A stretch of DNA of 33,714 bases from a virus. Below the pieces are notes generated by a model. The model saw nothing but the letters and a program-made list of their open reading frames with translations. It ran no database searches and was not told where the DNA came from. This document shows, piece after piece, positions 1 to 33,448 of the stretch. The translations under genes and the position numbers were made by a program. Within the stretch, counting starts at the first letter, position 1, and the number at the start of each line of letters is the position of its first letter. The stretch is taken from IMG/VR virus record IMGVR_UViG_3300048592_000073, positions 1-33,714 of that record. One strand, given 5' to 3'.

Positions 1-1155
1 ATCCAATCGGGCTCCGGCGTCACGCAGAACTCGGGCTACGCCTGCCCCTATAATACGGCGTTCAAGCTGACCTCGGCAGATGTTGGGCCGGATGGTGTCG
101 CCACTATTCCGCCGACGACTGACGAGCTGTTCCTGGCCCCATTCCCCGGCGATGCTTTCGACTACAGGATCGGCGATGGGGCTACCTACGTAGATGTTCC
201 CGAACTTGCGGCGCATCAGGGTTCTGGTACTTTCAATGGTGGCAACAATAAATTCGGGATCTGGACGGATATAAATGAAGCATCAGATCCGGTTCGCACA
301 GTCACCGGCTCGGGCATTGGTCTGCCGCTCTCCAACGTGCGGATGCCTGACGGCTGGCCACCGTTTACGACTGGCGGCGAGGCTACTCTGCTGGTGGATT
401 TTCAGACGCGGCTGAGCCACTGCTTTGTCGGCATGACGCGATCGGAGGACAGCACGACAAGGGCGGCGAGCATCCAGCGCTCTGCGAATATCGGCGAGTG
501 GAGCCACGGCACCACGCTAAACTTCGAGCGTCGGGGCACATCGGCTTCTGGCATCAACAATTTGAAAACACTGGTGCGCAGTGCTGACCTGTTCCGGGTC
601 GATTATGAGATTCCCTACGCCGTGGGGGTGGTGTTGCCTCGTGGAGAGACGGGCCACGCCTCGCCTGCGGTTATCAGCAAAAGCATTCAAGTCCCTGCCG
701 GGTGGGTGGACTACAATGCAAATGAGGCAGACAAGAACACCGGACCGCTAGCCTACGGTGCCCGTCTTGGCATCCCGCCGACATACGACTTTGTTACGGC
801 AATCAATGCGCGCGGAGAATCCGCACAAGCAAAGGAGATTGCGATCAGGTTCTTTCGGCAAATGACTGTCTTCGGGTGCATCGTTGTGGATGGCGGCTCG
901 CAACCGAATTTCCGCATCGATACTCGCGACTTGACTATCGAATTTGGCCTGAGCGATGCTGCGGTAACGGCGATCTACAACGAGCTGACTGATATAATCC
1001 GGGCACTGCTCTGGCAGAATTTGAAGCTCATCACCAATGCGGTGACAGGCGCTACTGCCGTTGTCACAGCCGGTGGCGGTTATACCGGGTCGATCGGCAC
1101 GCTCACAAATCCTGTGGGTGGTGGGACGGCGCTGGACTATGGGGACATTTACTAA
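1..1155 (+). CDS. Distal tail / fibre-type protein, 5'-truncated by window edge
   Basis: The reading frame is open from base 1 with no stop until TAA at 1153-1155, so at least 384 residues are present and the true start lies left of the window. An internal ATG at 337 is not a convincing start because the frame upstream of it codes with the same composition. No catalytic motif is recognised. The sequence is Gly/Thr/Asp-rich with a Gly-rich C-terminus, as in phage tail fibre or tip proteins. GC content and codon choice (many NNC/NNG codons) differ strongly from the genes after 1854, as expected for an exchanged host-range module. The stop overlaps the next start (TAATG), so the two genes are probably translationally coupled. 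The tail role is inferred from position and composition; a neck or head-decoration protein is possible. Confidence 0.5.
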   Translation: MQSGSGVTQNSGYACPYNTAFKLTSADVGPDGVATIPPTTDELFLAPFPGDAFDYRIGDGATYVDVPELAAHQGSGTFNGGNNKFGIWTDINEASDPVRTVTGSGIGLPLSNVRMPDGWPPFTTGGEATLLVDFQTRLSHCFVGMTRSEDSTTRAASIQRSANIGEWSHGTTLNFERRGTSASGINNLKTLVRSADLFRVDYEIPYAVGVVLPRGETGHASPAVISKSIQVPAGWVDYNANEADKNTGPLAYGARLGIPPTYDFVTAINARGESAQAKEIAIRFFRQMTVFGCIVVDGGSQPNFRIDTRDLTIEFGLSDAAVTAIYNELTDIIRALLWQNLKLITNAVTGATAVVTAGGGYTGSIGTLTNPVGGGTALDYGDIY

Positions 1156-18341: not shown

Positions 18342-18415
18342 TGGCGAACCGCCTCAGAATCGAACTGAGATCTACGGTTTTGGAGACCGTCGTTTTACCA
18401 TTAAACCAGCGGAAC
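18342..18415 (-). tRNA. tRNA-Trp (CCA anticodon), acceptor stem imperfect
   Basis: On the minus strand the 74-nt sequence folds as a tRNA. The D stem is GTTT/AAAC with a GG-containing loop, the anticodon stem ACGGT/ACCGT encloses loop CTCCAAA (anticodon CCA, Trp), the variable loop is 4 nt, the T stem CTCAG/CTGAG encloses TTCGATT, the discriminator is G73 (the bacterial Trp identity base), and CCA is encoded. The acceptor strands GTTCCGC and GCGGTTC pair at five of seven positions and leave two adjacent T-T mismatches (2-71, 3-70). It starts one base after the polymerase stop codon, so it must be processed from the operon transcript. Confidence 0.82.
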
Positions 18416-18416
18416 A

Positions 18417-20429
18417 TCAATGAGTTTCTTTCCAAGTTTTCCCCACCTTATATTCACCAGTGATAGGACACTTACATTTGTAGTATCTCCCAGCTTGCTC
18501 TAGGGAGAGTACCTGTAGTCTACCAAGGGTATGTGCATCAGCTTCTGAGCCAACCTCAGTCTGCCATTCGTCATGATTCTGTGTGGATAAACTATATTTT
18601 ACACCCTTCTTATCTGCTTGTCCACACCAAATCTTCAAGGCTCGCTTCATCAAGGTAGCTTCACCCTCTTGTAGTAGCGAAGCGAGCCAGTCACCGTGCC
18701 AGTCAGAAGCACATGGTATCCACCTACCACTGATGCCACTGTAGATGTACCCCTTGCGTGCTTGCTTCTTCTGAGTGTTCATGAAGGACTCCAAGCCGGG
18801 AGTCTCTTTGATGAACTTCTTATATAGTCTACCAGTCTCATCTACTGGCTTGTTGATTGTACTAGCCAGCTTAGTGATACTAGCACCTAAGAGGAAAGAA
18901 TAGATACCTTTATGTTCAATAGGCTTCGCTACTAACCTACCGGTTCTCTTATGAACTCCTGCACATTACTATGCAGAGCAGACTATATCATCACCCTACT
19001 GGGTGTCTGGCGCTTCCACTCGCTTGAGTGTACTCTCTTTCGAGATAGTCGTTGCACCTTCTAAATAAACTTCTTAGAGTCAAGAGTATTTAGCTTGGCT
19101 CAGGATTGTCCTTTAGAAGGAGGTTCCCTGAGTTCACCAGATTTATAGACGTCCTGTATTAAACGTCTTAGCCTTAGGTCGATCACACCCTAAGATGTCT
19201 GCATTACGTTGGTGCACGTCTCCGTTGATTAGCTCGTCTGTCCACTCTTGACTGTCAAGGTAGTGAGCCGAGACTCGTAGTTGAATTCCTGAGGCGTCAC
19301 ACCCCAAGAGATACTTGTTATCTGGTGCCCCCCACAATAGTCTACACTCACTACCATAGGGGCTATCACTGGAGGGTACTTGAGTAATAGGAGGATCGCG
19401 GTGAGCCATTCGGTGAGTTCTGGTTCCAATAGATATGATTTGTCCATGCTGACGATGCGTGTTCTCATTGTAGAACTCCAACCATTTGTCTATCTGTTTA
19501 GTGATACGTGTATTAAGGATACGCCACTCTTGGTATGGCCTGTACTTCTCACCTACCTGATGGATAATATCATCTAAGAGTTCATCATCAAGCTTAGGTT
19601 CTCCAGTAGGAGTTAAAACTTTTGGCTTCCATCCGGCGTGCAGTAAGTGACGTTTGATGAACGCATCTCTGTTGAGGTTGACTTCTGGCCATTTGATCCA
19701 AGCAAATGGGGCTCCGTCAGTAAACCAATCTGTCGGACATCCTCCAAGATTTCTAGTACTAAGTTCTCCGTTTCTTTTAGTCGTCGGGGTCGTGAGTATA
19801 AGCTCTCCTTTAGAATACTTAGCTTCTGCAAGAGAAGGAAATAACTCTCTAAGCTGAAGCTCACACTCTTGTCGTTTATCATTCAGTTCACTCCTAAGAA
19901 CCTGACATTGTTCTATATCAAAGTAGAAACCGTTACGCTCTACCTCTTTCATCTTCCAATGGACGAAACACTCTAGTTCTACCTCCGTCCATGGTATCTG
20001 CTTCTCATTGATACTGTTCTTAAGTAGTCGGTATAGCTTAGCATTGATCTTGGTATCTTCAACACACCGATGGATCATAGCGTCTGATAACACAGACCAG
20101 TCTTCGTGTTCAGGCTTGGTAATCCCTAACCGTTCTCCCCATGCTCCCAAGCTATGACCACCATCACGGTTAGAGTGATCAATGCGAGACATGCAGAGAG
20201 TATCCACCCAGCTATTAATGGGAGGAATAATGCCAAGACAGTCCCTAAGAACCCACCAATCGAAACCAAGAATGTTATGCCCAACAATCTCTGGATGTGT
20301 CGTGGCATAGTTACGCATCTCCTCATACGTAGTTAGGATATCAACATGGTCAGTATCAAGATCACGCCCAACCATGACGTGTATCTTGGTGTACTCTAAA
20401 CCGTCTGTCTCTAAGTCAACTACCTTCAC
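18417..20429 (-). CDS. Family A DNA polymerase (T7-type), interrupted by a group I intron
   Basis: The gene is split: exon 1 is 20429-19162, exon 2 is 18906-18417, and they join in frame to about 585 residues. Exon 1 has the 3'-5' exonuclease motif VVDLETDG at the N-terminus, GHNILGFDWW, and the polymerase motif A LLGCDASGIQLR. Splicing restores motif B as AKTFIYSFLLGAS, aligning with T7 AKTFIYGFLYGAG. Exon 2 has motif C NHDEWQTEV and ends like T7 polymerase. Unspliced, exon 1 stops at 19143, two codons inside the intron-derived frame after motif B. The GTG at 20429 (MKVVDLETDG, Shine-Dalgarno AAGGAG) is preferred over a GTG at 20468, which would overlap the upstream gene by 38 nt. Confidence 0.9.
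18907..19161 (-). ncRNA. Self-splicing group I intron in DNA polymerase gene, no ORF
   Basis: The 255-nt intron is defined on the minus strand. The exon 1 end AGACGTT pairs perfectly with internal guide GACGTCT across an 8-nt loop (P1), with the required U-G pair at the 5' splice site, and the intron ends in G. A conserved P4/P5-type segment (GGACAATCCTGAGCCAAGC) follows, then GGTGCAACGACTAT. GACTAT (19050-19045) and ATAGTC (18986-18981) form P7. CACCC/GGGTG gives a P8-like hairpin and CTGCA/TGCAG a P9-like hairpin. Removing these 255 nt restores the polymerase motif B exactly. No endonuclease is encoded inside, so mobility, if any, needs a protein made elsewhere. Confidence 0.92.
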
Positions 20430-20430
20430 A

Positions 20431-21015
20431 TCATTTAAACTCCTTGATACACTTAAGATGGTACTCACTTGAAGAAATATCCTTGAACTTATCAGGATAC
20501 TTATTGTCTATAAAGGTACACCAATTATCCCATAGTTGGTCTACTCCAATATGTCTACATATAGATAGATAATCTTTAATATTATATTTATTATCTTTAT
20601 TATATTTAATATCTAACTCTTTAAGTATATCTATTAAAGAGTATATAGTACTGAAGTTGTGAATGTCAAGACACCCTACCCTACCAAATGCTAACTGGAG
20701 GATGAAACCACCCTTAGCTACCCCTATCCCCGGTATCTCACATAGTATACCAAGGGCCTCTTCATCTGTCAACGATGGGAGTAGGGTATGGAGCTGAGAG
20801 GTAAGCTTAGGGTGACTCTTGAGCCACTCAAAGGTCTTGATCTTGTTACCCCACACGTAAGGGGAACGTAGCCCTACCTTGTTTACACTTGCAATCTGAT
20901 CATGCATAGCGTAGAATGGTTGTTGAATGGTGAGGGATACGAACTTAATGACACTATGGAAGTTGTCAGGGTTAAGGTGTGCTGCAATCTTAGGTTGAAC
21001 CGTCTTGTAAGTCAT
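20431..21015 (-). CDS. Helix-hairpin-helix DNA glycosylase-like protein
   Basis: A 194-aa helical protein. Around residue 100 it has a helix-hairpin-helix LCEIPGIGVAKGGFILQLAF followed by VGCLDIHN, placed like the HhH motif and catalytic Asp region of endonuclease III/AlkA-type base-excision enzymes. There is no iron-sulfur cluster Cys set. It may act on damaged or modified bases; the substrate is unknown. The start at 21015 is preferred because ATG overlaps the thyX stop (ATGA); the same frame extends to 21039. Codons for residues about 135-160 are unusually AT-rich (Lys/Asn/Tyr/Ile run). Confidence 0.6.
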   Translation of the reverse strand: MTYKTVQPKIAAHLNPDNFHSVIKFVSLTIQQPFYAMHDQIASVNKVGLRSPYVWGNKIKTFEWLKSHPKLTSQLHTLLPSLTDEEALGILCEIPGIGVAKGGFILQLAFGRVGCLDIHNFSTIYSLIDILKELDIKYNKDNKYNIKDYLSICRHIGVDQLWDNWCTFIDNKYPDKFKDISSSEYHLKCIKEFK

Positions 21016-22160
21016 AGATGTTCCATTAAGGCTTTCCAAGAGGTCGGGTATAGCTCTTCAAAGGTAGGCACAAACATCTTAGCGAAGTCTTGGATCTCTT
21101 TCTGTGCACTACCCTCAGTACGTAGCTTTATAAAGTGAGCCCAAGCCAACAGGGAACCAGTCCAATGCCATTCAACCATCTGCGATTGTGGCATCAACAT
21201 ACGCACCTGCTCAGGACATACTCCTTTATCAATCATATCTTTGTATAGGACCTTAAGATTATTGTAAAGTTCATCCACTGAATCTGATTGAGGAAGGATA
21301 TACCCACCATGTAATGCTAGTACCGACTTACAGAATTTTAACAAATCTTCATCAGAGGCATTGTGCTTCATGATGTTAGCTTTATTAGAAATAGTTTGTA
21401 TGTTCCCTTTAATATAGCCTTTAGTGTTATCAATACGATCTACACTAGGTGAATTATCTGTAATACTACTAGATTCATAGTCTAATGTTAACCCAAGATA
21501 GGCACAGCTTTCAGGCATTGGTATATCTTCTGGAGATAGGTCAATCTCTAATCCCCGTCTAGCTGCACTACCTTTTAACCGTTCAAGCTTAGAGACCCTC
21601 CAGCCTTGGTGTGTCTTACGGTATGCTTTTGACTGACAAGATGAGGAACAGTAAATCTGCCTGTTATTAACACTAGTGAATGTTACATTACAATTAGGAC
21701 ACTTACCTTCTTGTCCTTGGTAAGTTACAGTCTTGTCTGAACTTCCTTGTTTCTTATCTTCTGCTCTGCCCCTCCAAGATGTTGGCTTATAGAACTCAGG
21801 AGGAGAGTCAACATAACGACGAGATACTTCACTCCAACTCATACCTACCTGATGCTTACCCGCCTGTCTAGCTACGAAGAGGGGAGCCTTGCAGTGGAAA
21901 GAGATATGAGGATGTCTGAATGGGAGCCAGTGTCCTTCCCTAGCTAGGTAATTTATGAGCTTGGTATCTTTTTCTGATAGATATTTTTTACCGTAATACC
22001 TTCTAATTGGTGGGGCATTATATAGTCCCCTACCAAATTCATCTGTATCCATCTCTTCCCGGTAGTCTTGTACCCAATCAGACTGTTTATCAAAAGATAC
22101 CCTAGCTGCATTGACTACTCCCAAATCACTTGACATATGATCAAGATACGTGACTTCCAT
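21012..22160 (-). CDS. thyX: Flavin-dependent thymidylate synthase carrying an in-frame HNH insertion
   Basis: The 382-aa product is a complete ThyX with a foreign domain inside. N-terminal ThyX part (residues 1 to about 142): WLPFRHPHISFHCKAP and the signature KHQVGMSWSEVSRRY (variant of RHRxxSxNExSxRY), then DSPPEFYKP. C-terminal ThyX part (about 293-382): CPEQVRMLMPQ, HWTGSLLAWAHFIKLR and AQKEIQDFAK. Without the insertion it would be 231 aa, close to usual ThyX length. ThyX makes dTMP from dUMP using folate and FAD, and here complements RNR and deaminase. The start overlaps the 47-aa gene upstream by 20 nt; the stop overlaps the HhH gene (ATGA). Confidence 0.88.
   Translation of the reverse strand: MEVTYLDHMSSDLGVVNAARVSFDKQSDWVQDYREEMDTDEFGRGLYNAPPIRRYYGKKYLSEKDTKLINYLAREGHWLPFRHPHISFHCKAPLFVARQAGKHQVGMSWSEVSRRYVDSPPEFYKPTSWRGRAEDKKQGSSDKTVTYQGQEGKCPNCNVTFTSVNNRQIYCSSSCQSKAYRKTHQGWRVSKLERLKGSAARRGLEIDLSPEDIPMPESCAYLGLTLDYESSSITDNSPSVDRIDNTKGYIKGNIQTISNKANIMKHNASDEDLLKFCKSVLALHGGYILPQSDSVDELYNNLKVLYKDMIDKGVCPEQVRMLMPQSQMVEWHWTGSLLAWAHFIKLRTEGSAQKEIQDFAKMFVPTFEELYPTSWKALMEHL
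21283..21735 (-). mobile_element. HNH homing-endonuclease-like insertion inside thyX
   Basis: Exactly 453 nt (151 codons) interrupt the ThyX frame and are flanked by a 5-bp direct repeat TCAGA. Deleting them gives an uninterrupted KQGSSDSVDELY junction. The insert encodes a zinc-finger-like CPNC...CSSSC, a basic linker, then a CAYLGLTLDY segment and SVDRIDNTKGYIKGNIQ followed by NKANIMKHNAS, the pattern of phage HNH endonucleases. It lacks intein features (no N-terminal Cys/Ser block, no C-terminal His-Asn) and the ends do not fit a group I intron (exon U and intron-end G are not both available). Confidence 0.8.
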
Positions 22161-22646: not shown

Positions 22647-24230
22647 TCACTCTACCTCCGTCAGTCCAAATGGGCGTAGGTTAAACCTAAGCTTGGTACC
22701 TAGTCCACTCCAACCAGAAGACCTACACTTGTTAACATGCAGTAAGGTAGTGTTCTTCTCTTCTTCGTCTTCACTCATCTTGTTACGAGAAAAGCTAAAG
22801 AGGTTATTAGCTAGCTGATAGATAGCACCAGTACCCCTAGCATCTTCCATCGTAGGTACTGCCCCTTCTTCCCAAGTTTTAGAGCCATTACTCTTACGTA
22901 GGTGACAGCAAGTAGCAATGTAACAATCAAGTCTAGTGGTAAGTTGTTTCAAATTAGTAAGGAACTCATCGGTAAGAGCAAGTGTGTTGTCTGATGCTGT
23001 ACCACTCATGATGTAGCTGATGTGATCTAGGATGATCACCTTGGTACCGTATACCCTGACACTCAGTTCAATTAAGGATAAGATATCCTTGGATGTGAGC
23101 CTACCATACTCCTTCTGATCGAAGAGGTGGATACGATTAGACCCTAGTGTATTCTTCCAAGCTTCTTCCTTATCAGTAGGGCTATACTCTTCAGTAGGTT
23201 TATGGAAGGGGATGCCTGAGTTGAGAGCCATGTACCTTAGGGTTGCTTCTTCTTCTGAATCCTCAAGGAAGAAGACAGCCTGATGATCAGTAGTTGTATT
23301 GAGGATGTGATGTGATAGTTGAGAAAGGAATAGACTCTTACCAATGGAGGAGCCTGCAAGGTATACATCTAGGTGTGAGTACTTCCAACCCCAGCATACT
23401 TTATTGATTGCCTCCCAAGGATAAGACTTGTACTCGATGCTTTTACGTGAGAAGATACTATCATGCAGTTCATCAAGATTACAGAAAGCCTTAAGCTTTA
23501 CAGGCTGACTAGCCCACCACCTCTTGATTAGCTCACCTGACTTACCTTTAGTCAGTGCTTCATTAGCATCCTTAGGGAAGTCAGTTGGTAACTCTATTAC
23601 TTCTACCTTACCGGGGAAGATAGTAGCAATCCGTTGCAGGTCTACCTTGCGACCAGCATCATCGTTGTCAGGTAGGATCTTGATCTTCTCGAACTGATTA
23701 AGCTTCTCAAAGTTATGCTGGATAGCATCTACTGCTACTGAGTCTGAAGGTACAGCATAGACAGGGTACCCTCCCAGCATCTGAGATAAGCTTGGTGCAT
23801 CCCACATACCGAAGACAATAGTAACAGCCTTGGTACTCTTAGGTGGTACGTGCATACCCCATAGGTCGTAGTCTTTCTGCTTGAAGCCGGGCGCGTGGTA
23901 GATATACTTCTGTTTCTCAATCTCAGGTTGATTTACTTTAAAGTTTACCAGTTTCCCATTGATGTATAAGGGAAAATAGTAATGACCTTTTGCATCTGGG
24001 CCACAGATACCCCAGTCCTTTAAGGTCTTTACATCTAGTCCTCTGTATGCCTTCGTAGCCAGAGGCACAGAAGGAAGAGTACCAGTGAGCTTAACGCTAC
24101 TAGAATTATCCATGTTAGTACCTCTTCCTTTTCCTTTGTAGTTACATGAATGACAGAATGAACCACCATCTTCAAAGATAGTCAAGCAATCATTGTGTCC
24201 ACATTTAGGGCATGGCTGATGTGTTAGCAT
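22647..24230 (-). CDS. T7 gp4-type primase-helicase, Toprim site degenerate
   Basis: A 527-aa protein with the T7 gp4 layout. An N-terminal zinc ribbon (CPKC...CHSC, residues about 7-30) is followed by a Toprim region with ILPDNDDAGRK (about 195), a DANEAL element (about 228), and a RecA-type helicase with Walker A AGSSIGKSLFLSQL (about 300) and Walker B KVIILDHISYI (about 405). It unwinds the fork and may synthesise primers. The usual Toprim TEGE motif reads VFGM here, so the catalytic Glu is missing. ATG 24230 (MLTHQPCPKC) is chosen because it is the start closest to the zinc ribbon; the same frame runs up to a TTG at 24308. Confidence 0.88.
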   Translation of the reverse strand: MLTHQPCPKCGHNDCLTIFEDGGSFCHSCNYKGKGRGTNMDNSSSVKLTGTLPSVPLATKAYRGLDVKTLKDWGICGPDAKGHYYFPLYINGKLVNFKVNQPEIEKQKYIYHAPGFKQKDYDLWGMHVPPKSTKAVTIVFGMWDAPSLSQMLGGYPVYAVPSDSVAVDAIQHNFEKLNQFEKIKILPDNDDAGRKVDLQRIATIFPGKVEVIELPTDFPKDANEALTKGKSGELIKRWWASQPVKLKAFCNLDELHDSIFSRKSIEYKSYPWEAINKVCWGWKYSHLDVYLAGSSIGKSLFLSQLSHHILNTTTDHQAVFFLEDSEEEATLRYMALNSGIPFHKPTEEYSPTDKEEAWKNTLGSNRIHLFDQKEYGRLTSKDILSLIELSVRVYGTKVIILDHISYIMSGTASDNTLALTDEFLTNLKQLTTRLDCYIATCCHLRKSNGSKTWEEGAVPTMEDARGTGAIYQLANNLFSFSRNKMSEDEEEKNTTLLHVNKCRSSGWSGLGTKLRFNLRPFGLTEVE

Positions 24231-24519
24231 ACTTCGCAATCCAAGGGCATCGTGCTCCATTCCTCTCAATGTAGCTGAGTCTCTTATACTTCTTACTTTG
24301 ACCACCAACAGTCAGTTCTCTACCGTCCTTCAGAGTGACAGGCTCACTCCTCCACATGAAGTAGTAGTAGTGCTTATTCTCAATAAAGGTGATGTCTGCA
24401 ATGACATACATCCTCAAGATACAGTCTGAGACATACCAATGTAGTGGTCTAGCTTGCTTAACAGTTATGATCGTATCACCTACCCCTAAGGTATTGCCGA
24501 AGGCATCAATCAGTCGCAC
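24205..24519 (-). CDS. Small unknown protein upstream of primase-helicase
   Basis: A 104-aa beta-rich, aromatic and basic protein. GTG at 24519 is preferred as start (GGAG six bases upstream, 10-nt overlap with the previous gene); the frame also extends to a TTG at 24549. The C-terminus overlaps the primase-helicase start by 26 nt. Pattern such as GVGDTIITVKQARPLHWYV suggests an SH3-like or OB-like small barrel; no family is recognised. Confidence 0.65.
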   Translation of the reverse strand: MRLIDAFGNTLGVGDTIITVKQARPLHWYVSDCILRMYVIADITFIENKHYYYFMWRSEPVTLKDGRELTVGGQSKKYKRLSYIERNGARCPWIAKYANTSAMP

Positions 24520-30796: not shown

Positions 30797-31513
30797 TCAC
30801 CACTCCTCTGCCTCTTCTTTCGTCAAGAAGAAGTGAATACCACTGGTGCATTCAACCCTAATGTCAGCATCATAAGCGTCAGGGTATGTCAGCTTGCCGG
30901 GGATGTAGTGCGTCTTGTGGACACCCCTACTTACTACTGCTTCGCCTTCAATAACGAATACAAACTCAGCCCTGCACTTACGCCCAACGGGTGTTGCTGT
31001 TCGCCGAGCAGAAGGTGGCACACTCATTTTAACTAGGGTTCCATTCTTCTTTCCCCATACGATAAGTGATCCTTCTTGTGGGATCTGAAAGTGCGGAAGT
31101 ATAGCATCTTCAAGGTCTGCACCTTTGAGGTAAGCACCTATGAGGTCTGCATCTCTGAGGTTAGCACTTCTGAGGTTAGCACTTCTGAGGTCTGCATCTT
31201 TGAGGTCTGCACCTCTGAGGTCAGCACTTCTGAGGTCTGCATCTCTGAGGTCTGCACCTCTGAGGTCAGCACTGCTGAGGTTAGTACCTCTGAGGTCTGC
31301 ATCTTCAAAGTCTGCACTTCTGAGGTCTGCATCTTTGAGGTTAGCACCTCTGAGGTCAGCACTGCTGAGGTTAGCACCTATGAGGTCTGCACCTCTGAGG
31401 TCTGCACCTCTGAGGTCTGCATCTCTGAGGTTAGCACCTCTGAGGTTAGCACCTATGAGGTCTGCATCTTTGAGGTCTGCACCTCTGAGGTCAGCAAACG
31501 GTGTAATATTCAT
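30797..31513 (-). CDS. Pentapeptide-repeat protein with C-terminal DUF5758-like domain
   Basis: A 238-aa protein from ATG 31513 ([14 protein letters not shown]). Residues about 7-136 are 26 uninterrupted A(D/N)LxX pentapeptides, predicting a right-handed quadrilateral beta-helix of about 6.5 turns. Residues about 140-238 form a separate domain with [31 protein letters not shown] and [14 protein letters not shown], the pattern seen in phage proteins annotated DUF5758. Pentapeptide proteins of the Qnr/MfpA type mimic DNA and bind gyrase; that role is possible but not shown. Five bases separate it from the upstream gene. About 110 nt of non-coding sequence follow. Confidence 0.85.
31106..31495 (-). 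repeat. 26 tandem 15-bp units encoding pentapeptides
   Basis: The segment consists of 15-bp units that on the plus strand read near CCTCTGAGGTCTGCA, differing by a few bases each. Conservation at the DNA level, including silent sites, is high enough that slippage or recombination between units is likely. It produces long spurious open frames on both strands. Confidence 0.9.
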
Positions 31514-31517
31514 TGTC

Positions 31518-32069
31518 TTACGCTGCCTGCTTGTACTGTTCAACCAATGCCTGCACTGCACGGGTAAGTTCATGGACCCTATGCTTATCGGTAGGCTTGA
31601 TCTCTTTCTTGTCCTCAATCGAAGCAATCGCTTCAAGCCTCTTAATCAGGCTATCATAGCCAACGATAGCATCCGCGCTAGACTTGGAGGTGAGCTTGAA
31701 GTATGGCACCTCACTAGCCTCAGTGAAATGCCAGTCGTCATCAGTCAGGTTATCCCACTTCTTGGCAAGCTTCACACGATAGGTGAGCTTCTCCTTATCA
31801 AACAGCACCTTGATAGGAAAGTTAGTCTCAGTCCAAGCCTTCATCTGTTCGTGGTGAGACTTAACATCGTTGTCAAAGAGCCCCTGAAAGAGTGCCTGCA
31901 TGTACTTGTCAAGGCCAGCACCCTTGTTTTCCCAAGCATACTGGACAGAAGCACACAAGGCTACGTGGATAGAGTTACGTGCCTTTACACTGCCGTTGAT
32001 AGCAGACTTGACAGCACCACCCACCTTGGCAGCACTGATGTGGTTGGTGGTCGTCAGTTCGGTAGTCAT
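31518..32069 (-). CDS. 183-aa unknown early protein
   Basis: ATG 32069 has a strong GGAGGT Shine-Dalgarno about 8 nt upstream; an in-frame ATG at 32144 is rejected since it overlaps the 30-aa gene completely. The product is helical and Lys-rich, soluble, with [20 protein letters not shown] near the N-terminus and a [23 protein letters not shown] closing helix. No family is recognised. As an early gene it may act on the host or in replication. Confidence 0.75.
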
Positions 32070-32070
32070 A

Positions 32071-32163
32071 TCAGCAACCTCCGTAAAGAGTACCCGCACC
32101 CATTGCACGGATAGCAGACCAATACATTTCCATGTGAAGAGCACACCACTCTTGCTTAGTCAT
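32071..32163 (-). CDS. 30-aa micro-protein
   Basis: ATG 32163 overlaps the TGA of the upstream gene (ATGA); TGA at 32073-32071 is one base from the next ATG, and the last codons contain that gene's Shine-Dalgarno. The product starts [20 protein letters not shown]. It may be a translated coupling leader rather than a functional peptide. Confidence 0.45.
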
Positions 32164-32363
32164 GCGTAGAGCACCTTCCCCTTCCTGCGATAGTCACGGA
32201 GCTTGGCGATGGTACGATCATTGCGGGCAAGTTCACGACGAAGGTTGAAGTCACGATCGCTACGCTCGATCTTACGCTCAAGCTCACGATCAGAGTACGG
32301 ATGATAAGTCCTCAAGACAGGACCACCAATGGCGAAGGTGGGTGACTTGGGCCTAACGTTCAT
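32160..32363 (-). CDS. 67-aa basic protein
   Basis: ATG 32363 has AGAAGGAG about 7 nt upstream; the longer frame to 32390 is not preferred. The product is very rich in Arg, Asp and Lys with a charged helix (SDRELERKIERSDRDFNLRR). It may bind nucleic acid. No family is recognised. Confidence 0.65.
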   Translation of the reverse strand: MNVRPKSPTFAIGGPVLRTYHPYSDRELERKIERSDRDFNLRRELARNDRTIAKLRDYRRKGKVLYA

Positions 32364-32514
32364 TGACACACTCCTTCTCATACACTGCATAAGCTTTCAA
32401 AAGCTTCTGGAAGTTGTAGTCTTCGGTTGCACTGCCGGGAGACGACTGATGGACACGGAGCCACCAATAGGCGGCATCTGCCATGTTCAGAAGAGCGAAC
32501 AGCTTCTTAAGCAT
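32353..32514 (-). CDS. 53-aa protein, first gene of the leftward arm
   Basis: ATG 32514 follows TTGGAGAAG (Shine-Dalgarno GGAG). The 53 residues start MLKKLFALLNMADAAYWWLR and are amphipathic. It overlaps the next gene by 11 nt. The 14-bp inverted repeat 32528-32574 sits immediately upstream of its ribosome-binding site, so this gene and the operon behind it may be controlled there. Confidence 0.6.
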   Translation of the reverse strand: MLKKLFALLNMADAAYWWLRVHQSSPGSATEDYNFQKLLKAYAVYEKECVNER

Positions 32515-32527
32515 TCTTACTTCTCCA

Positions 32528-32574
32528 AGTTAAACCATGAAGGATAAGACATGCTTACACTTCATGGTTTAACT
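32528..32574. promoter_or_regulatory. 14-bp perfect inverted repeat in leader of early arm
   Basis: AGTTAAACCATGAA at 32528-32541 is perfectly complementary to TTCATGGTTTAACT at 32561-32574 with a 19-nt loop. In the leftward transcript it forms a hairpin ending a few bases before the Shine-Dalgarno of the first gene. There is no U-tract on either side, so a terminator is unlikely. An RNase III processing site (as in T7 early mRNA), an operator or a translational control hairpin are possible. Confidence 0.7.
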
Positions 32575-32599
32575 AAACATACCTTTCACCCATTGGTAC

Positions 32600-33145
32600 T
32601 ACAGTTCTATAAGTAAGCAGGGTACTAACTTTCGTCAGCTTGCTAGCTTACTCGCGGTCCCGCAAACTTACCCTAGTCGCTGGTTTCCGTTGGAAGGTAT
32701 GCTAGTGCATGTATTACAGTGCAGGCCCATGCTGGCTTAGACGAGGTTGACAGCTCGCCATTGCAGAGGTTATCAGCCTCGATAGGGTGGTACTAAGTTC
32801 CACATGCCTGCCGTTCGGTGTACCCTAAGTGTGCCACAAAGGACAAGCCACACTCGGGCCTTGGTACTAGGCGTACATGTGTTGCAGTCAAGCTCCACAC
32901 TATCCGATATTAGCTCACCTGCGCCTCGATAGGTTACACGAGGCCCGAGCCATAGCTGCTAGGTATCGCTGACGACGAAACCCTAGCATGGTAGCGGCAT
33001 GTTACCTCCGCTCGTCAGATGGGAACGCTGCGTGTTCCCGGTATCTCTCTACATAGTCACTGGCATTGCACCAGTCAAGAGCCGACGCAACAGGGTCAGA
33101 GCAGACCCTCAAGAGACCCACTAAGGGCCGGTGCCGCGTTGGCAA
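32600..33145 (+). ncRNA. Putative large structured non-coding RNA (about 550 nt)
   Basis: No credible frame exists here, yet complementary segments are dense. The main helices are 32612-32618/32646-32652, 32619-32624/32669-32674, 32721-32726/32806-32811, 32853-32863/32939-32949 (11 bp), 32869-32875/32920-32926, 32957-32963/32982-32988, 32969-32975/33012-33018, 33021-33026/33034-33039, 33059-33063/33071-33075, 33081-33088/33136-33143, and 33092-33097/33104-33109. Two pairs of helices interleave as pseudoknots. Three helices contain internal G-U pairs only if the plus strand is the RNA. Ends and promoter are not defined. Giant phage RNAs such as GOLLD and ROOL are comparable in size; identity with them is not claimed. 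Confidence 0.55.
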
Positions 33146-33176: not shown

Positions 33177-33388
33177 CAAATTAAAAATAATCCATGATAT
33201 AGCCTTTGCTATGTTCCCTTCGCGTATATGAATGCAAGTAGCGTGCCAAAGGATAAGATTCCTGTGGATAAGTGGTGGAATACAATGTGGATAACCTTGT
33301 GGATAAGTGCTGTTCCACATACCGGAAATTCCCCGTGAGACGACGATAAGGCATACAGACGAGGGATACCCCATGGAAGTTATCCACA
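33177..33388. other. Candidate replication origin: AT-rich tract plus four DnaA boxes
   Basis: An AT-rich stretch (33177-33201) is followed by perfect DnaA boxes (TTATCCACA or its complement) at 33263-33271, 33286-33294, 33298-33306 and 33380-33388. The first three are in one orientation and the fourth in the other. The AT-rich part would serve as the unwinding element. Host DnaA consensus is known; use by this phage is inferred. A single further copy lies inside the polymerase gene (18582-18590). Confidence 0.6.
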
Positions 33389-33448
33389 GCCTGACGAGGC
33401 TCCTAGAGGCCCTTCCGATGATGCTATGAAGTATAGCCTTTGCTATGT
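33198..33448. repeat. Repeated hairpin TATAGCCTTTGCTATGT, two copies
   Basis: The 17-bp sequence occurs at 33198-33214 and 33432-33448, on either side of the DnaA-box cluster. Each copy folds as ATAGC-CTTT-GCTAT. A shorter relative (AGGCTTTGCT) is near 33156. They could be protein-binding or RNA-processing sites bracketing the origin. Confidence 0.6.

Follow-up and report, generated by a model that had tools for sequence, protein, structure and literature searches.

How does a phage with a T7-type replisome begin to copy its DNA when no RNA polymerase gene of its own is in view? In T7, RNA polymerase transcripts serve the start of replication. An earlier note on the DNA studied here drew attention to a cluster of DnaA boxes, and proposed a host-DnaA-dependent origin, to which the phage may have shifted in the absence of an RNA polymerase of its own. 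We analysed the entire viral contig (33,714 bases, hereafter the window), which is classed as linear and is probably a fragment.

Gene content and the T7-type replisome

The window carries structural genes on the + strand up to about 12.2 kb and an opposed early/replication arm on the - strand, which begins near 32.4 kb; its first early ORF (32160-32390, -) has a homologue in the same order in L006 (IMGVR_UViG_3300022678_000014). This was the only close relative that we found, with 62% identity in the primase and the same gene order. The closest matches of the tail-tube B protein and the primase were in the Zobellviridae, e.g. SIO1, P12053L and CRP-4 (about 30% identity). We identified a T7-type primase-helicase (22647-24308, -; phrog_239, E 1e-104), parts of a T7-type DNA polymerase (N-terminal part at 19143-20468, -; phrog_17), an exonuclease and a ribonucleotide reductase, bearing out the T7-type replisome that had been claimed. 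We could not find a phage RNA polymerase gene (PF00940) in the 33.7-kb fragment, with four control phages positive; the earlier statement that none is in view was thus correct, though the whole family lacks this gene.

The DNA polymerase gene (18342-20468, -) is broken into two ORFs (19143-20468 and 18417-18794) and is immediately followed by a tRNA-Trp gene; in L006, by contrast, the polymerase ORF is single and intact. ThyX, identified in the window from its translation (21012-22160, -; 9233-10333 in L006), contains in both phages an in-frame insert resembling a zinc-finger/HNH-type domain. A pentapeptide-repeat protein at 30797-31636 (-) is coded by a 15/45-bp tandem array.

A phased array of DnaA boxes at the head of the early arm

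We identified four exact copies of the DnaA box TTATCCACA, of which A (33263-33271), B (33286-33294) and C (33298-33306) lie on the - strand and D (33380-33388) is inverted, on the + strand. Together these span exactly 126 bp, as the earlier note had said, and each was found where it had been placed. Boxes A to C, three of the four, share one orientation and follow each other at a helical spacing, in 23-bp and 12-bp steps. The 23-bp step is split into 12 + 11 by a degenerate box-like 9-mer, TATTCCACC (33274-33282, -), which is weak by itself because it has three mismatches to the consensus. A fifth exact box was found at 18582 (-), within the polymerase gene.

When the window was simulated 600 times with Markov models (200 each at orders 1, 2 and 3), 0.2-0.4 exact boxes were expected and no simulation gave even two within 130 bp, confirming that the cluster is genuine and far above chance. 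The array is non-coding, as ORFs of at least 90 aa do not overlap it, and stands at the head of the early arm, in agreement with the intergenic location previously described. For comparison we assembled 120 viral loci selected by DnaA boxes alone (three clustered), blind to all other sites. Their box steps peaked at 11, 12 and 21-23 bp; the search pattern allowed steps of 9-24 bp only, so that weight rests on the peaks inside that range. Such steps are the geometry expected of adjacent DnaA molecules on one face of the helix, as in DnaA oligomers.

An AT-rich tract, repeats and the contig end

A possible unwinding element, 84% A+T over 25 bp, is found at 33178-33202. It ranks in the top 0.25% of 25-bp windows, although over 50 bp the A+T content is only 68%. 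The boxes had been described as next to this tract; the tract is real, but the nearest box is about 60 bp away and a predicted σ54 promoter intervenes, with the tract just downstream of that promoter's predicted start (near 33222). We recognised no DnaA-trio at the tract. Across the 120 loci, a mean AT excess of 0.05-0.08 (SE about 0.012) was found 60-120 bp from the arrays, on one side; the tract of the window lies on the opposite side of its array from this excess.

Adjoining the tract is a 17-bp repeat, TATAGCCTTTGCTATGT (33198-33214), with an internal dyad (ATAGC/GCTAT), and a second identical copy is found at 33432-33448. These two copies flank the array and are possible regulator sites, that at 33432 being a candidate upstream site for a σ54 activator. 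AT-rich imperfect repeats and inverted repeats occupy the contig end (33559-33714), which is probably close to the genome terminus, judging from gene order against ICBM2, a phage with a 159-bp terminal repeat beside its early arm.

The cumulative GC-skew minimum falls at the array. This check had been proposed for the complete genome and was run here on the window; the two transcribed arms diverge at the same point, and gene direction explains the minimum equally well. As the skew is inseparable from gene direction, it is not independent evidence for an origin and was dropped.

A σ54 promoter beside the array

We identified a perfect match to a σ54 (-24/-12) promoter, TGGCACG-CTAC-TTGCA, at 33233-33248 (-), where at most 0.01 would be expected per window. 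The motif tested was the core TGGCAC-N5-TTGC, including the GG at -24 and the GC at -12. The promoter lies 14 bp from box A and reads into the early arm. A counterpart, TGGCACG-GCAA-TTGCT, was found in L006 at 245-260, on the same strand and in the same order, with drifted flanks, indicating that the predicted promoter has been conserved against a drifted background. L006 has a second perfect site at 75-90, in the opposite direction.

A gene for a σ54 enhancer-binding protein (PF00158) was found neither in the window nor in 49 other records, and we therefore rejected a phage-encoded activator; a host-encoded one is possible. Sigma-70 promoters were also considered: upstream of the early genes the minus strand had none, and their number stayed below that in shuffled sequence. 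Read along the early strand, the order is dyad, box D, boxes C-B-A, σ54 promoter, dyad, AT-rich tract, structured RNA, hairpin and early genes. The previous reading of this region had noted the boxes but overlooked the perfect σ54 promoter and the structured RNA, both of which alter its likely role.

A conserved structured RNA downstream of the promoter

Between the σ54 promoter and the first early gene lies a conserved structured RNA of about 550 nt (32581-33130, -), with a counterpart in L006 at about 395-945 (+). The two-sequence consensus energy was -81.05, against a mean of -53.4 for column-shuffled alignments (z -4.84 on the early strand); the 3' domain reached z -5.7, and the opposite strand only z -1.0. 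Between the window and L006, 32 base pairs have changed on both sides, four of them belonging to a single long-range helix of ten pairs. Folding of single sequences gave nothing remarkable (z -1.4), the signal emerging only from the two-sequence test with column shuffles.

Rfam covariance models (E up to 1) gave no credible match to this RNA and no tRNA was detected in the non-coding stretch that holds it, so that a known RNA family or a tRNA cluster was rejected. A search for further relatives of the RNA and its adjacent gene returned the L006 contig only; with two members, it is a good candidate and not a defined family. It is followed by a 21-nt inverted repeat (32528-32574, -; 90% complementary, 5-nt loop), possibly a processing or termination element.

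DnaA boxes do not track the loss of RNA polymerase

L006 contains one exact DnaA box, within the 13-mer GCTGTGGATAACT (159-171), identical to that of box D in the window and in the corresponding place. We found no second box there, but the contig ends 160 bp beyond the first. Of the four boxes, the one at the site of box D is kept in this close relative, along with the promoter and the RNA, so that the array has been less well preserved than the elements around it. The earlier note had named absence of the boxes from close relatives as a result that would tell against it, and the retention of one box in four goes part of the way towards this.

Among 19 Zobellviridae records without RNA polymerase, we could not find a cluster of exact DnaA boxes. 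One, PQ867852, has a weak cluster close to the beginning of its record, in which an exact box and two near-exact ones follow each other in 11/12-bp steps; we found nothing comparable in the other 18. In contrast, arrays coexist with a phage-encoded RNA polymerase in four isolated T7-type phages, Escherichia P483, Enterobacter NJ2, Klebsiella FBKp16 and Vibrio BD5. Thus, loss of the polymerase neither requires nor predicts the boxes, and we rejected it as their cause; the proposed shift to DnaA initiation by this route was not borne out. In the latter phages (FBKp16, P483, NJ2 and BD5; L210-L212 and L214) each early-end array has three to six exact boxes. We found no perfect σ54 site in the fetched regions of these four.

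The pairing of DnaA boxes and σ54 sites recurs in environmental phages

In the 120 DnaA-selected loci we identified 11 perfect σ54 sites within 400 bp of the arrays (102.8 kb), against two elsewhere (932.7 kb), an enrichment of roughly 50-fold. This was specific to the correct 4-bp spacer (11 sites near arrays, against 0-1 for other spacers), and 40 permuted motifs gave no sites near arrays. The 11 sites are spread over seven loci that are linked at the protein level, and so are not independent events.

Direct scans for a box followed by a σ54 site within 5-35 bp returned 97 viral stretches, and those for a distance of 122-150 bp another 64; by our estimate chance would account for about three in each viral scan, if the viral collection contains about 5e10 bases. 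Applied to 257 Gb of bacterial and archaeal genomes, the 5-35-bp scan yielded 24 matches, scattered over many phyla. The paired regions form 41 clusters at 70% DNA identity, the largest with 127 members. We examined 50 records, most of them picked because they showed the pairing; the window and a few records with an array alone completed the set. The T7-type primase family was found in 26 of the 50, and a phage RNA polymerase over the cut-off in one.

In several of these records (L239, L242, L246 and L281) the layout is an AT-rich stretch, a G+C-rich tract, DnaA boxes, 11 bp and the σ54 promoter. The distance from the last box to the promoter differs between lineages, from 0 to about 150 bp. 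The commonest gaps between box and σ54 site in IMG/VR loci L239-L391 are 11, 22, 33 and 43 bp. The σ54 sites often occur as overlapping opposed pairs, e.g. in L331, L377 and L388. L025, L026, L039, L045, L051 and L126 mostly show an oriC-like arrangement of a T-rich element, a short C-rich tract and then the DnaA array; all encode T7-type primases, with the exception of L045, a short fragment.

A T7-type primase, encoded a few kilobases downstream of the array, was found in at least nine of the 120 array loci. We also searched 80 distant relatives of the primase for arrays, and none had two boxes within 300 bp. The sequences make a strong case for a combined DnaA/σ54 architecture, and its recurrence in many environmental phages suggests that two host proteins have been borrowed for the copying and the reading of DNA.

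A candidate origin and its alternatives

Our leading, if tentative, reading is that the region is a transcription-assisted replication origin, using host DnaA and the σ54-polymerase together with the phage T7-type replisome. The cluster would be one part of a composite region, controlled by host factors, from which the early (replication) arm starts. The phased four-site array would be bound by DnaA of the host, and the promoter beside it by σ54 RNA polymerase, activated by an enhancer-binding protein. The transcript would cross the AT-rich tract into the structured RNA, and probably continue into the early operon. DnaA oligomer and σ54 transcription would together open the duplex, on which the phage primase-helicase and polymerase could load, taking over the role that RNA polymerase transcripts have in T7. 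DnaA binding, σ54 use, the extent of the transcript and origin function are all predictions from sequence; they draw on the boxes and their phasing, the conserved σ54 promoter, the covariation in the RNA, the T7-type replisome and the recurrent pairing. Of the origin first proposed, what stands is an ordered, helically phased array at the early-arm head, of a class also found repeatedly ahead of T7-type primase genes in environmental phages; the argument from RNA polymerase loss does not. The strongest point against an origin is that L006 has lost three of the four boxes but kept the promoter and the RNA. Further points against it are the Zobellviridae records, in which exact boxes do not cluster, the AT-rich tract on the other side of the array from that in the larger group, where we recognised no DnaA-trio, and the 50 records in which we found no gene for an enhancer-binding protein.

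Second in our ranking, and a possibility to be taken seriously, is that the boxes control transcription and are not an origin. DnaA, a known transcription factor, would act at -45 to -162 from the σ54 start, repressing the promoter or helping to activate it, and so tie the structured RNA and the early genes to the host DnaA-ATP level. The array fills exactly the upstream zone of the σ54 promoter, and in most of the DnaA-selected loci with a nearby σ54 site, that site points away from the array and in the orientation of the boxes. However, the lineage-dependent distance between box and promoter is unlike a fixed contact, the phages that carry an RNA polymerase have arrays without any σ54 site, and the AT-rich and GC-rich segments flanking arrays appear origin-like.

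We consider it unlikely that the boxes are instead a DnaA sink, titrating host DnaA and stopping chromosome initiation, or a genome-end element for DNA entry or packaging. The probable genome end nearby, with its repeats and dyads, would suit an end element, as would the early-end arrays that P483, NJ2, FBKp16 and BD5 have despite their own RNA polymerase. The T5 injection stop signal, for which a role of this kind has been proposed, has been described as rich in repeats, palindromes and DnaA boxes (PMC13250531), and repeats, dyads and boxes are present in the window, but its genome end is inferred rather than seen. Neither function predicts a σ54 promoter beside the array, or the absence of σ54 sites in the phages with an RNA polymerase, and four boxes per genome are few for titration early in infection. 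Finally, a chance cluster or functionless remnant, for which the single box kept by the closest relative might speak, is very improbable given the simulations, the helical phasing, the adjoining perfect σ54 promoter and the conserved RNA.

Novelty and implications

DnaA-box arrays in phages and classic σ54 promoters are already known in kind. In the open-access literature we found no description of the DnaA/σ54 pairing, of how specific it is or of its repeated occurrence in phages with T7 replisomes, most of them without an RNA polymerase gene in view, no example of σ54 promoters heading phage early regions, and no DnaA origins in such phages, the T5 stop signal (PMC13250531) aside. A bolder proposal, which we regard as less likely than not, is that these loci represent a class of origin that is widespread but has gone undescribed, and in which a host DnaA array and σ54 transcription replace the phage RNA polymerase transcript in RNA polymerase-less phages with T7 replisomes. 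If so, the σ54 transcript would here double as a new large structured RNA, and genome copying and the early programme would hang on host σ54 activators, which respond to nitrogen, motility or stress signals, so that infection would be gated by them. The locus thus offers a concrete candidate for the start of replication in these phages, with two host proteins at one genome site in many lineages. The motif pair is specific enough for searching, and simple enough for reporter tests in laboratory bacteria.

Comparison with known systems

The RNA of the window resembles GOLLD and ROOL RNAs in being long, highly structured and phage-borne, but differs in having two members only and no Rfam match. 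The promoter shares with bacterial σ54 (RpoN) promoters its perfect -24/-12 elements and correct 4-bp spacing; it differs in lying in a phage control region, beside DnaA boxes. With SIO1, P12053L, ICBM2 and CRP-4 of the Zobellviridae, the window shares its gene content, opposed arms, lack of an RNA polymerase and about 30% identity in primase and tail proteins, but these phages have no exact DnaA boxes. The arrays of P483, NJ2, FBKp16 and BD5 have 11/12/22-bp steps and are located close to the early end, within non-coding DNA or beside it, although these phages encode an RNA polymerase and most have more boxes than the window.

Like a bacterial oriC-type origin, the region has several exact TTATCCACA boxes, spaced helically at 11-12 bp on the same strand, with an AT-rich tract close by, and lies where the two gene arms diverge. 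It differs in that there is no dnaA gene, the unwinding element is putative, a σ54 promoter lies within the element and a T7-type helicase stands in place of DnaB. With the primary origin of T7, formed of phage RNA polymerase promoters and AT-rich DNA, it shares the T7-type primase-helicase and polymerase and the succession of a promoter and an AT-rich tract; in place of the phage RNA polymerase, it has a host σ54 promoter and DnaA boxes.
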